Source: Caenorhabditis elegans
Lineage: Eukaryota > Nematoda > Chromadorea > Rhabditida > Rhabditidae
DNA length: 64,000 nt
Reading direction: 5' to 3'
Assembly (NCBI RefSeq): GCF_000002985.6
Contig: NC_003281.10
Coordinates: forward strand, 5,952,001 to 6,016,000
Positions within the stretch are counted from its first letter, which is position 1. Each line of letters starts with the position of its first letter. Shown piece by piece: positions 1,710 through 61,772 of the stretch. A model generated the notes under the pieces. The model was not told where the DNA came from and did no database searches. It saw only the letters and a list, made by a program, of their open reading frames with translations. The translations under genes were made by a program, and so were the position numbers.

Positions 1710-4700
1710 CTATCGTCGTTGCTTCTTCTCCGGTGGGTAACCTCCGTCGCCATATGATCCGAACATGCCTCCTGGTCCTTGCTGTGGTGGATAATCACGG
1801 CCGGCTGAAATCGAGGAAACATTAATCTCGAACCAGATCCAATAAAACGAAGAATTTTAAAACTTACGCATTCCTCCTGGTGGTCCATTATCACTTTTGA
1901 AGATCTGCAATAATCGTTGGACTCCTTCGATCATGTTACTCCGTCCGTGAGATTTTGGAAGCATTCCTCCAGGACCTCCAGGTCCTCCCGGACCCCCTGG
2001 CCCTCCTTGTCCTGGTGGTGGTCCTCCCATTCCTCCATGACCTGGTGGTCCGCCTTGTCCTCCGTGTCCTGGGGGACCTCCCATTCCTCCGTGTCCTGGT
2101 GGTCCTCCCATTCCACCTGGTGGTCCTCTAGGATCTCCACCACCTCCCATCAGTGGTGGAGGTCCTGTAGGAACATTGAACATTCCTTGTGGTGCTTGTT
2201 GGAACGGTTGACCGAATGGTGGTGGTCCACCTGGTCCTCCAGGTCCGCCGAACATTGATCCTCCGTGTGGGTTGAATGGCTGAGCTTGTGGTGGCACACC
2301 TCCTGGCATTCCTGGTGGTGGTCCACCAAGACCACGCATACGTTCGCGGCGAGCAGCTTCAAGACGTTCTAGCTCTTGTTGGCGGCGTTGGAGATCTGAA
2401 AGAATTTAAATGTATATTGGAAGAGACAGAAGAAATGAGTGCTGAGGATCAACAATTAAATTAATTTCTTTTAACTGAAAATGGAGACGTACAGTAATAT
2501 ATTTAGTACCCCGTGACGAGATATCAGTTAGTTGACTGGTTATATTGTTTTTACCCTATTTCACTATATGTCCGCAAAATATTAAAAAAAAAAAATTAAC
2601 TTAAAAGTATTCCGAAGGCAAAAGAAAAAAGCGATTCCTTTGTTTATTGCTAAAAATTAAACATTCGGTAAATAGAGTTTAACTCTTTGAAAACTTAAAA
2701 TGAAGAAAATCATCACAAAGATTTTTGAAAAGTATTTCTGAATTTATAGTTATTCGAGAAATATTCAACAAAAAATAATCGGGAATTGGACACAACACAA
2801 CTTCAGATTTATCAACTTTTAAAAATTGTAAAAAACTGCGGCGTATATTGCTCAGCTATAGCATTTTGAAATGTGATTCACAATAGAAAATGATGATATA
2901 ATCATCTTTGTAAAAGAGAATTTGTGATTACATTTCCCTTCCCGCCCATAATAATTTTTATAGTAATCAAAACCACCTTTTTCCAATAATAAATATTTTT
3001 TTAAATAAAATCCCCCGAACCAGGAACTCCCCCAAGTCTAGAAAAAGAAAAATAATGCACGAAACCAAAAAAAGAGCAAAAAAAACATAAGGTAACCTTC
3101 TCTGAGCATCTGTGCTTGATAGTCTTGATAAGCGAGCTCCATATCAGATTCCAATCGTCGACGTGATTCGCGAAGCTCTTCGTCGAGTTGAGCACGACGT
3201 TTTTGCTCCACAACATACAATTCCTTCCACTTCATTCCATACACATACTCGAAGCTGTTTGGTGTCGGGAAACGCGGTCCAAGCTCACGTTCCCTAGATT
3301 ACGAATTACAGTCTTTTGATTATAATAAGAAAGGAAGTAAATAATTAATTGTTAAACTGTTTTAATATCTTCGAAAAAAATATGTTTCAAGACTGTTTTG
3401 TTTAAGAAATAACCATAAATGACATAAGCATAAATGAAAAATTATGAAAATAGCTCAACCCGCTTCCTTAAAATATATTTAAAGTCAAAAATGCTTCAAA
3501 TCATAAATAGATTTTCTTAATTTTAAGCAATCAAAAGACAAAATTTTTACTGAACTAGATAAAACATCCAAGGCTTTTGATTTTTTGGTGGTATTTTATT
3601 TAAGAAAAATTGGAAATCAAAGTAAGGTTTTTAAACTTTACAAGAATATTCCAGTTATCAAGCCTTGTTCAAGATTGACGATGACACAAATTAAAACTCT
3701 CTTAGAAAAATCAGAGAAATTTTTAAAAAATTTGTGGGTATTCGAAATATAGGAATTTTTGATTTATTTTTGAAATAAAAAAAAACAAAAATCGATATTC
3801 CAATAAAAAGTGAGCACTCTATTGGAATATCTCAATATTCAGACAAAAAACCCTTAATTTGCCAAATGTCTACAGTCCAAAACTTACTTTGAGAGTCCCG
3901 GTGTACGTGGGATCATTCTCTCGGCCAGTCCATCGTCTTCATCTCTTGGTTCCAGCACTTCACAAATCAGTGGTTTCGGACTCCTATACAAAATATACCG
4001 GTTTAATGTTGAAGAAATAAATTAAAACCCACTGGGGATTCCCGTATTGTTAGTTAACTAACTACAGTATCATGATATAAATTTCATATGATAAATGTCT
4101 CCCCCGAAATATTTAAATGTGCCTAGAAAATGATGACAAAAAGCTTACAAATCTTACGATTTTATAAGCTTTTTGGAAGAAAAAAGGCTTTAAGGTACTT
4201 GTGTATTAACTGTACCCGAATTGTTTTTAAATTTAAAAATTACATGTGATTTTTTTTGTATTTATTCTTTTTTATATTTTGTATTCCATCGAAAAGAAAT
4301 TTGGGGTACAGCTAGTAAAATATATATGACAAAAAACTACAGTTTATAGGAAAATGTGAGTAAATTAAAGTTCATTTAATTTCTTGTGACCCTCAGCTTT
4401 GAAATTCTACACATTCTAGTGGTTTCCAAGATTTCTAGCTACAAAAATCCTTATTAAAAAGTTTATGTTCCGATTCCATTGAAAGTTTCAAAGCGCTCTC
4501 CAGTTCATTCTCAGATGATTCAGCTTACTCACGCGGTCAATAAGAACACTTTATCGCGAATAGCAGCCATTGCCTCGTTACAATTCGGCTTTCTTTCAAA
4601 TTCTACGATTCCTTCTCCGGTTGGTCTTCCCTTTTCGTCGACAATATGAACAGCCCTTTCAACATCTCCAAAATGTGAGAATGCGTGATAGAGCATCTCA

Positions 4701-6215
4701 TTGGAGACAGTTGGCGAGAGTTCTTTAACTCGAATCGCCGCTCCATGAACTGCGAATCTAACACGTACTTGACGGCCGTGAATGATGCGACCGTCGATGG
4801 CCTCCTTGGCACTTTCAGCGTGAGCACGTGTATCCTGTGAAGTAAATTGAAATAGAAATGAGGACAATAAGAAGAAAAATTAAATATAATTTGAAAATGG
4901 ATCACCTTTCTTTTCGAAAGACTTTAGGGAGATAGTTGAAGCTTCTAGAGAAATCTAAAAGCACGAATGAATGCATAATTAATCGATAAAACAATTAAAA
5001 GGCTCAAAAATTAAAAGAAAACTCTAGAAGCTTCATAAATAATATTCTATACGAGATAAACTTCCAAGCTGCGATATAATGCGAAAAATTGAATTTTGTC
5101 TACGGAATTTTCTCTCAAAGGAATTTTCCGAAAGTAACCAGACAAGCTCTGAAAATTTTCGGTGACATAGAAAATAGTTTGCTAATGAATAAACAAAGGA
5201 AAAAATAAAGTTATAGGACCTCCAGAACCTGCTGGTTGAAAGTAACAAAATTATTTCTTTCAACAGGAGACTATTTGAATTAAAGAGATGGATTTTCTAC
5301 AATAATTGACGTAGATGCAAACTTCTGTGGACCGTAGAAATCTGAAAACGCGTTGCCGAGGTAAACCAAGCACAGAAAATATTTTTACAATTAGTTCACA
5401 AGTTTTGATATTTTTAAAAACACGAGTCCACAGGAAGAAGTTACGATTGAGATATACATTGGGTTGAGTTGCAATTTGAAGTTTAGAAACAGCGAGTAAA
5501 TACACATAGAGATGGTGGAGTCCACTAATTTTGAGTTTACGAGAATGAGTCCTTCAGCATTTGATAGTATTTGAGTACCCAATGAGTCCGATTTAAATGT
5601 GTACTTTTGGCAACCTCGGCTTCGCGGCGATTAGTGAAAATAGATAGGAGAGGTGTAAATGCAACTTTAAAAAATATTTAAATAAACTAACCAGTCTTAA
5701 GAACGCAAATCCTTTTCCAGATAAATAGCACTCAGCAATATCTCCATGTGGAGAGAAAAGTTCTTTTAGCTCGGTTTCTTTAACTTCATTTGGCAAATTT
5801 CCGACGAAAAGCCGACATCTTCCAGTGAACTTCTTTTTTGGAACTTCATCCATCAGTTGGGACTCAGTGAACGCTGCTCCATTGAAAGAAGTTCCACCAC
5901 CACCACTTCTTCCACCACCACCACCGCTTCTGTGTCCTCCATTGTTGTCGTACGGCTGTTGAGCCGGAGCAATTCCACGTTCGGCTCCACCGCGGTTGCC
6001 TCCACCTCCGCCACCACTGCGAGCTGCATTGTTGGAATTTCCACGCCTGAAAATATAAATTGTACAGAATACCAACTAAATATGTAAAGAAAAACTTACT
6101 TTTCATCTCCTCCGCGATTTTCCCTCCCTGGTTTGCGATCGTTTTCCGCTTTTGCAACTCTTGATGAATCATCACGACCATTTGAACGCCTGTTGTCTCT
6201 CCTTGCACCACTCAT
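1710..6215 (-). CDS. nono-1: NONO/PSF-type DBHS RNA-binding protein
   Basis: Drosophila-behaviour/human-splicing (DBHS) protein of the NONO/SFPQ/PSPC1 family. These are nuclear RNA- and DNA-binding dimers in transcription, splicing and RNA retention. Seven exons in transcript order: 6215-6100, 6046-5692, 4834-4533, 3983-3888, 3293-3097, 2395-1868, 1804-1710. Phases agree and total 1689 bases, 562 residues. RRM1 is near residues 114-185 (RNP2 CRLFVGNLP, RNP1 GKGFAFLRL) and RRM2 near 188-265 (IRVKELSPTVSNEMLYHAFS). They are followed by the NOPS segment (GPRFPTPNSFEYVYGMKWKE), then a charged coiled coil (RRRLESDMELAYQDYQAQML). The N-terminus is Arg/Gly-rich and the last exons encode a Gly/Pro repeat tail ending PPEKKQRR. 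The start follows a TTTGCAG acceptor at 6245-6251, probably a trans-splice site. The intron at 4835-5691 holds nothing I recognise. Confidence 0.95.
1868..2330 (-). repeat. Coding Gly-Pro-rich repeat in nono-1
   Basis: The sixth exon contains near-tandem units reading GGPPGHGGMGGPPGHGGQGG and variants. On the plus strand this appears as repeated CCTGGTGGTCCTCC blocks, strongest between about 1970 and 2125. The peptide is collagen-like in composition but not a strict Gly-X-Y run. It fits the low-complexity, Gly/Pro-rich tails of DBHS proteins that promote condensate formation. Repeats of this kind change length easily, so copy number could differ between strains. Confidence 0.85.
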
Positions 6216-60500: not shown

Positions 60501-60725
60501 TGTATGTCTGCTTTCCATCATTGGCAACTCGTACCAGGAGATCCACTCGATAAATCCATTGTTATCAAGACTCTCGACGTCCAGCCAACTCCACATCTCG
60601 CCAGAGAGTTCATGATCAAGACCAGAAGACGCAAGGGTTTGTCTGAAGATGTCTCCGTTAACAAGTTCTTCGATGATCCGATGCTTCTCGAACTTGCAAA
60701 GCAGCAAGATTATACTGGATTCTAA
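57580..60725 (+). CDS. eftu-2: U5 snRNP GTPase EFTUD2/Snu114
   Basis: The EF-2-like GTPase of the U5 small nuclear ribonucleoprotein, which controls spliceosome activation and disassembly in the nucleus. Exons 57580-58207, 58254-58628, 58676-59729, 59783-60353 and 60429-60725 (TAA) close in phase to 974 residues, the usual family length. An acidic N-terminal region of about 55 residues precedes the GTPase domain, with P-loop AGHLHHGKT (G at about 139), G3 DTPGH at 207-211 and G4-like ISKID. EF-2 domains II-V follow. Late segments such as [20 protein letters not shown] and [19 protein letters not shown] are characteristic. The C-terminus ends [20 protein letters not shown]. It has far fewer and shorter introns than its neighbours, as expected for a strongly expressed gene. 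The symbol (ZK328.2) is from memory. Confidence 0.97.
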
Positions 60726-61772
60726 ATTGCGATTTCCTAACTTATTTTCTCATTGTTTCACACTTTTTATCTTTCAGTGTTCTTTCCCGTTTCATTGAGT
60801 TGTTTGATCACAATAGTAAAATGAAAATTCTTGTTTATCTATCTATCAAATGATATTCAGAGCAGGGACCAAAATTGAATTCTCTTAGTTTCGTCAAACA
60901 AGCTGAATGTCCGTTGAAGGTATTACTCTTGGACAACTTTTTTGAAAAAAAAAAAACTGAAGATCAACATAAGCCTACGCTTAATTTTAAGTCTAAGCAT
61001 AAGCTATAACCGAATTGGAGGCCCCACGAAAAGGGGAGCAGAACGAAAAGGGGATCTGCAAAAAGGGGATCTGCGAAAAGGGGAGCAACGAAAAGGGGAG
61101 CTGGCACTGTGCCAAACGCACAAAACGCAATTTTTCTCACGCAGCGCACGTTGATTTTTGAAATTTTCTTCTAGAAGATACGCTTAACAACACGCGACGC
61201 GTAACATCGGAGCATCGTTGTATCGTTTTCTTCGAGGAAAATAGCGTTTGGCACAGTGCCAGATCCCCTTTTCGTTGCTCCCCTTTTCGTATCTCCCCTT
61301 TTCGCAGATCCCCTTTTTGCAGATCCCCTTTTCGTTCTGCTCCCCTTTTCGTGGGGCCTCCCGAATTGCTCTACCTCGTAAAACGAAGCGAACCACTCCA
61401 ATTAAGAAACGATCATTCCTACTGGCTAAATCCGCCAGACTGAATTATTCAAGAAAACTTTCCATTTATTTAGCAACTTTTATCAAGATGTACTAGATTA
61501 ACATCATCGCGTGGTCGGAAATTGAATTTTAAATTAAATTCGAGTACTCAATTTATCGTTTTGCTGATTTCTAAATTTCTGTACTAGTTTTCTCATGTGA
61601 ATAGAACACAACAGTAATAACATCCTACAAAAAGTTCATATTCATAGTAATAAAAAGACGATTCGGGAAATGATGATATACGAGGAAGACAGACGGAGAG
61701 GGCAGGAAAATGTAAATAAAAAAAATAAAATTAGAATCAGGTGAAAAATGAATAAATTAAAAAGTGGCTAGT
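60726..61772. other. Convergent intergenic region containing a fold-back element
   Basis: Between the eftu-2 stop (plus) and npp-10 stop (minus). A variant poly(A) hexamer AGTAAA at about 60814 may serve eftu-2. AATAAA on the minus strand at 61465-61470 may serve npp-10, about 300 bases after its stop. The middle is a 343-base inverted-repeat element (61018-61360). Open frames at 60942-61496 on both strands run through that element and are not genes. Confidence 0.65.
61010..61368. mobile_element. Fold-back transposable element with 8-bp target site duplication
   Basis: The element spans 61018-61360. Its ends are perfect inverted repeats beginning GAGGCCCCACGAAAAGGGGA, identical for roughly the first 75 bases, then continuing with one extra repeat unit in the right arm to the shared CTGGCACTGTGCCAAACGC. 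The arms are tandem CGAAAAGGGGA(GC/TCTG)-type units of about 15-17 bases. It is flanked by the direct repeat CCGAATTG at 61010-61017 and 61361-61368. The internal loop of about 130 bases encodes nothing evident. An 8-base duplication is typical of hAT-type transposition. The near identity of the arms suggests recent insertion. Confidence 0.88.

Follow-up and report, generated by a model that had tools for sequence, protein, structure and literature searches.

The foldback element of 343 bp at positions 61018-61360 (plus strand) of the window, the whole 64,000-nucleotide stretch that we analysed, belongs to a dispersed family and, as judged from sequence comparison, is a non-autonomous cut-and-paste transposon of the MITE kind. 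This assignment follows from the many copies in the genome that have the same ends and are flanked by exact 8-bp duplications differing from copy to copy. The window element itself is ordinary, being a member of a known transposon kind. One of its relatives, L092, seems to have moved an entire gene to a different genomic site.

Anatomy and setting of the window element

The element is flanked on its two sides by an exact 8-bp duplication, CCGAATTG, which can be read directly at 61010-61017 and 61361-61368. It starts with GAGGCCCCACGAAAAGGGGA, and this is also its end on the other strand. The first ten bases form a terminal motif, GAGGCCCCAC (61018-61027 on the plus strand and 61351-61360 on the minus strand), which is common to a sister family with a different tandem unit. 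The two arms (61017-61101 and 61277-61361) form an inverted repeat of 85 nt that is 98% complementary, and both contain tandem units of 15-17 bp: five in the left-arm array (61027-61103, plus strand) and six in the right-arm array (61264-61352, minus strand). Each unit consists of a C(G/A)AAAAGGGGA core and a 4-base linker, giving the 15-bp period, except that the outermost linker has 6 bases and the outermost spacing is 17 bp. The usual order of linkers from outside to inside is GCAGAA, TCTG, TCTG, GATA in variable number, and GCAA, in both arms. The inverted repeat extends inward past the tandem part (inverted pair 61046-61119 and 61244-61317), with a left inner part around TGGCACTGTGCCA, inside the tandem array (61101-61119, plus strand), and a right inner part (61244-61262, minus strand). 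The fold-back structure, the tandem arms and the exact duplication had been described by an earlier sequence-only reading, and all of them are present at 61010-61368. That reading also saw one extra unit in the right arm. The counts of five and six agree with this, but a common 388-bp form has two GATA units in each arm, whereas the window copy has a single one in the right arm and none in the left; measured against that form, it would have lost two left-arm units and one right-arm unit rather than gained one.

In the 64-kb window, the 19-bp end matches only at the two ends of the element when up to three mismatches are allowed, a result that none of 100 shuffles equalled. Stop-to-stop frames across the element are at most 93 aa long and extend into the flanks. 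RNA folding of the element gives a long hairpin of -234.8 kcal/mol, compared with a shuffle mean of -98.6 (z -27), and single-strand DNA folding gives -152, compared with -46.6 for shuffles.

The element was said to lie between two convergent genes, and this location is borne out by the domains, strands and stop positions of the genes. The left neighbour, which we take to be eftu-2, is on the plus strand and encodes an EF-G C-terminal domain, with its stop codon ending at 60725. The right neighbour, presumably npp-10, is on the minus strand and encodes a Nup96 domain, and its last exon as read stops at 61775-61773. The further suggestion that both transcripts may enter the hairpin keeps its premise of convergent genes but is weakened by two poly(A)-type signals, AATGAA at 60820 (plus strand) and AATAAA at 61470 (minus strand), each of which precedes the element on its strand. 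Because of these positions, the normal transcripts of both neighbours probably end before the element, and only read-through transcripts would include it.

A dispersed family with variable arms

The genome searched (G000) comprises 100.29 Mb in seven contigs, the window being positions 5,952,001-6,016,000 of the third. The 20-bp end with up to three mismatches has 151 genome matches, compared with one for the reversed control, and a DNA search that scored 40 of its 120 candidates found at least 104 matching stretches. These copy numbers are lower bounds, based on positions for the first 100 of the 151 end matches and on 40 of 120 and 40 of 95 candidates scored. When both ends were required to have no more than two mismatches and to lie 100-1,200 bp apart, 48 elements of 147-1,090 bp were paired from 60 fetched places. 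The 12 places without an end pair (L025, L031-L034, L038, L041, L046, L060, L062, L069 and L070) stand outside the 48; in two of them, L038 and L046, an element is plainly present but one of its ends has decayed. Paired ends also occur in L103 and L104, which were left out of the 48. An exact 8-bp duplication flanks 33 of the 48 paired elements, and a duplication with at most one mismatch flanks 36, the sequences differing between elements; 15 have no exact duplication. When left and right flanks were compared across different elements, 0 of 2,256 comparisons gave an exact match, and the ninth flanking base agrees in just 10/33 and 7/33 of the elements with exact duplications. The sequence-only reading had proposed that a genome search would support its interpretation if it turned up copies with the same ends and different 8-bp duplications, and the 151 end matches and 33 of 48 exact duplications are what it anticipated. 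Inverted ends and a fixed-length duplication at many places, together with short length, high copy number and no transposase coding, characterize the family as a MITE family, and the long inverted arms of tandem repeats, varying in number, characterize it as foldback.

Only one of the 48 paired elements is on C6, the contig taken as X, compared with 8.5 expected by length (P 0.001), a count made among the matches listed and possibly biased. This scarcity offers a testable hint on where such elements insert or persist. L050 (C3:12710771-12710945) has 8-bp flanks, TTAAAAAT and ATTTTTAA, which are reverse-complementary instead of direct repeats, and for this reason it may sit in the middle of another palindrome.

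Since near-identical copies are so numerous, the family is probably catalogued in Repbase already, and we do not claim a new family. It may well be, we presume, one of the PAL8-type palindromic repeats of C. elegans, a name pointing to a palindrome with an 8-bp duplication. In our literature search, which covered mainly open papers, we recognised no paper describing the foldback family or the composite discussed below. The accessible parts of PMC5850821, PMC9463143 and PMC5395297 name some C. elegans palindromic repeats, and the sequence of the window family is not among them there; PAL8C_1 occurs as a name in PMC9463143.

A sister family shares the ends of the window family. The genome contains 43 occurrences of the motif GAGGCCCCAC in which the next base is not G, compared with 18 for the reversed control. 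The three sister copies fetched (L116-L118; 207, 245 and 257 bp) all have exact 8-bp duplications, and they combine the 10-bp end of the window family with a 15-bp unit, CCAAAACAGGATGCA. These data indicate that the terminal 10 bp are common to both families and that the tandem unit differs.

The interiors of 36 copies were aligned. They fall into type A, that of the window element (26 copies with 0 to 6 differences from the consensus), and type B (10 copies), which is about 20% away. Of 160 sites compared in the window interior, 2 depart from the type A consensus; six other type A copies are identical to the consensus over 159-160 sites. When type B was aligned separately with one more copy (n = 11), ten copies showed 0-3 differences over 146-147 sites and one showed 7 over 146. 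This pattern looks like two fairly recent bursts of the family, and the earlier description of the window element as young is plausible in the light of its interior.

Arm length varies mostly in 15-bp steps, that is, by whole units. The extreme is L029 (C1:12899133-12899840), which has 33 tandem units in one arm and two in the other, a satellite-like expansion with a duplication made of an A/T run. The earlier suggestion that the tandem arms could expand fits these whole-unit changes well. Left and right arm lengths are not correlated (rho 0.18, p 0.37; 28 of the 31 elements of 320-400 bp). We also considered whether the two arms of an element are homogenised and rejected this, as in the same 28 of 31 elements an element's own arms are not clearly closer to each other than those of shuffled pairs (p 0.086). 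Each arm would gain and lose units independently of the other, in the manner of slippage or unequal exchange; the counts are direct, and the mechanism is our interpretation of them. In its arms, the family offers a naturally occurring series of gains and losses of tandem units.

Several longer copies were considered as autonomous elements and rejected. L029 (708 bp) merely has an expanded right arm. L030, the longest copy (1,090 bp), has a second palindrome inside and frames of at most 85 aa. The insert of L026 and L037 is found elsewhere without the element and has no Rfam match. L026 and L037, whose duplications differ, have this insert at an identical position in the interior, which would fit transposition of a copy that already contained it. 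Elsewhere in the genome, at C2:3171117-3179545, two inward-facing GAGGCCCCACA motifs lie 8.4 kb apart, which may represent a long element with the same ends or may be due to chance.

The source of transposition

Muta1 and Muta5 of Aedes aegypti are described in the accessible parts of PMC5225508 as Mutator-like foldback elements with non-autonomous derivatives. Their terminal motif (10 bp in Muta1, 8 bp in Muta5) is followed by tandem subterminal repeats of 12 bp with 3-4 bp spacers or of 15 bp; their duplications are 8 or 9 bp long and show no preference; and their derivatives have variable repeat numbers and new interiors, some with pieces of host genes (PMC5225508). Compared by layout, the likeness to the window family consists of a short terminal motif, subterminal repeats with a period of about 15-16 bp, duplications of 8 or 9 bp and derivatives with altered repeats. 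The window family differs in showing 8-bp duplications alone and in that no transposase was found for it. Tm1 of root-knot nematodes, a Mutator/foldback element with a transposase of the Phantom type of Mutator according to the available portion of PMC3169594, resembles the window family in its nematode foldback arms with a variable number of ~14-bp units, its MITE forms and a gene inside one element. It also has a motif ending in AAAAGGGGA, as the window-family unit does, which is a short resemblance of letters. It differs in that 9-bp duplications are the commonest, in its 7-bp asymmetric outer motifs outside the inverted repeat, and in its unit sequence (PMC3169594). On account of the layout of Muta1 and Muta5 and of the likeness to Tm1, we read the window element as probably working like a Mutator-type foldback MITE, an analogy that we hold with some confidence and do not extend to proven membership.

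The duplications are consistent with this reading. The set used for their analysis contains 37 exact duplications: the 33 of the family, the three of the sister-family copies and that of the composite. Their A/T content is 73% and higher towards the middle of the site, and no base is fixed; duplications of 8-10 bp without strong preference are usual for Mutator-like elements. Several observations stand against the Mutator-type reading. No transposase with these ends was found, and the Mutator domains PF10551 and PF03108 have no genome matches (four controls matched for the former; two for the latter, none over the cut-off), compared with 13 for the hAT dimerisation domain. Moreover, the duplications are 8 bp alone here and mostly 9 bp in Tm1 and 8 or 9 bp in Muta1, no exact duplication flanks 15 of the 48 paired elements, and the foldback form is found in the P-type element Galileo too. 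The source of transposase is absent from this genome or not recognisable in it.

A transposase made elsewhere recognised the ends, excised the element and inserted it between the convergent genes with duplication of 8 bp, as the anatomy and the comparison of copies show. The enzyme would most likely be a Mutator-like transposase of the animal foldback group. By analogy with Galileo, cleavage would take place at the 10-bp end, and each of the repeated 15-bp units would offer a binding site for the transposase.

An alternative is that a foldback MITE of this kind was moved by a P-type transposase, as Galileo is, or by a Merlin or an undescribed transposase. In the accessible parts of the two reports, Galileo (PMC3688188) and Tetris (PMC4079207), both of Drosophila, have long arms with internal tandem repeats; the arm repeats of Galileo bind its transposase, and for Tetris, too, no autonomous partner is known. 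As the case of Galileo shows, foldback ends with tandem binding sites can go together with a P-type transposase (PMC3688188). The arms and units of Galileo and Tetris are much longer than those of the window family. The Merlin domain PF12762 (IS1595-type transposase) has no genome matches, with one of 14 control genomes matching, and the P-type domain search also gave none, a result that is uninformative since no control matched either. We consider this alternative unlikely.

The sequence-only reading had favoured a hAT-like transposase acting in trans, which would make the element a hAT-derived MITE. The duplication length of 8 bp agrees with this, and there are 13 matches to the hAT dimerisation domain in the genome. 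The consensus of hAT duplications is nTnnnnAn. T at position 2 together with A at position 7 is found in 2 of the 37 exact duplications (shuffle mean 3.9), and a central TA, as in nnnTAnnn, is found in 4 of the 37 (shuffle mean 3.95), so both hAT signatures are at shuffle level. The arms of about 85 nt are also far longer than the terminal inverted repeats of hAT elements, which are 5-27 bp according to the accessible part of PMC3517528. The family ends were absent from the 13 hAT-domain loci over the match and 1.5 kb on each side, a stretch that may fall short of both element ends. We rate a hAT origin lower again than a P-type, Merlin or undescribed source, and the label "hAT" for the family looks wrong.

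A hairpin grown locally as a terminator or small-RNA source, instead of an insertion, would suit the extremely stable RNA or DNA fold and the position between convergent genes, but as an origin it is refuted by dozens of dispersed copies that share these ends and have exact duplications differing from one another, and the poly(A)-type signals lie outside the element, so we give it almost no weight.

A composite that contains a gene

L092 (positions 3049-6025 of the fetched locus; C1:4958848-4961824) is a 2,977-bp composite with the same ends as the window family. It consists of a complete 371-bp foldback element, a segment of 2,474 bp and a lone right arm of 132 bp. An exact 8-bp duplication, TCACGTTT, is present on both outer sides of the composite, and the first element is followed internally by CCAAAACA, not by TCACGTTT. 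Approximately the first 160 bp of the 2,474-bp segment resemble the palindrome of the sister family, and the remainder holds a gene. The gene is predicted to be intact and host-like, with six exons that encode 462 residues and contain no internal stop; the copy at III_12.88 is predicted to encode 458 residues, and in both, splice sites were chosen by motif. The six-exon read-out covers these two copies, and the full exon set was not recovered in the four others. The L092 protein matches no Pfam family at its cut-off, and its two weak matches (E 0.059 and 0.12) are below theirs.

Besides L092, the segment is present in three near-full copies (96-97%) and in two partial copies. The foldback element lies directly at the left edge of the segment in three of the six places (I_4.96, III_12.88 and III_10.44). 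At I_3.36 and III_10.75 the segment starts with a sister-family end, and at III_4.78 it has neither end.

The lone right arm of L092 and the right arm of the adjacent element both have the variant GCAGATCGCC, which occurs in one of the 48 paired elements, namely this adjacent element. Because the variant is common to both right arms and rare among the 48 elements, we read the far arm as copied from the near arm or as later converted to it. Two histories fit L092. In one, the composite transposed as a whole; in the other, the site TCACGTTT was occupied by an ordinary element that gap repair then filled in, using a template that contained both element and gene. The first history would mean that the tandem arms can act as macrotransposon ends, with an intact six-exon gene between a full element and a copied right arm having moved as a unit of 2,977 bp that made its exact 8-bp duplication; we regard the chances of this as evenly balanced. 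The capture step would be arm copying during gap repair. L092 suggests that such ends can relocate a host gene in full. If true, this would parallel Pack-MULE capture in an animal, with a whole gene and its introns taken instead of a fragment.

The copy at III_12.88 has the same element and segment as L092 and nearly the same right boundary, but it lacks the right arm. The absence of the arm would be accounted for by a deletion between TTTTTTTGGC in this copy and a repeat of that string shortly downstream. The four other segment copies continue beyond the right boundary of L092 and III_12.88.
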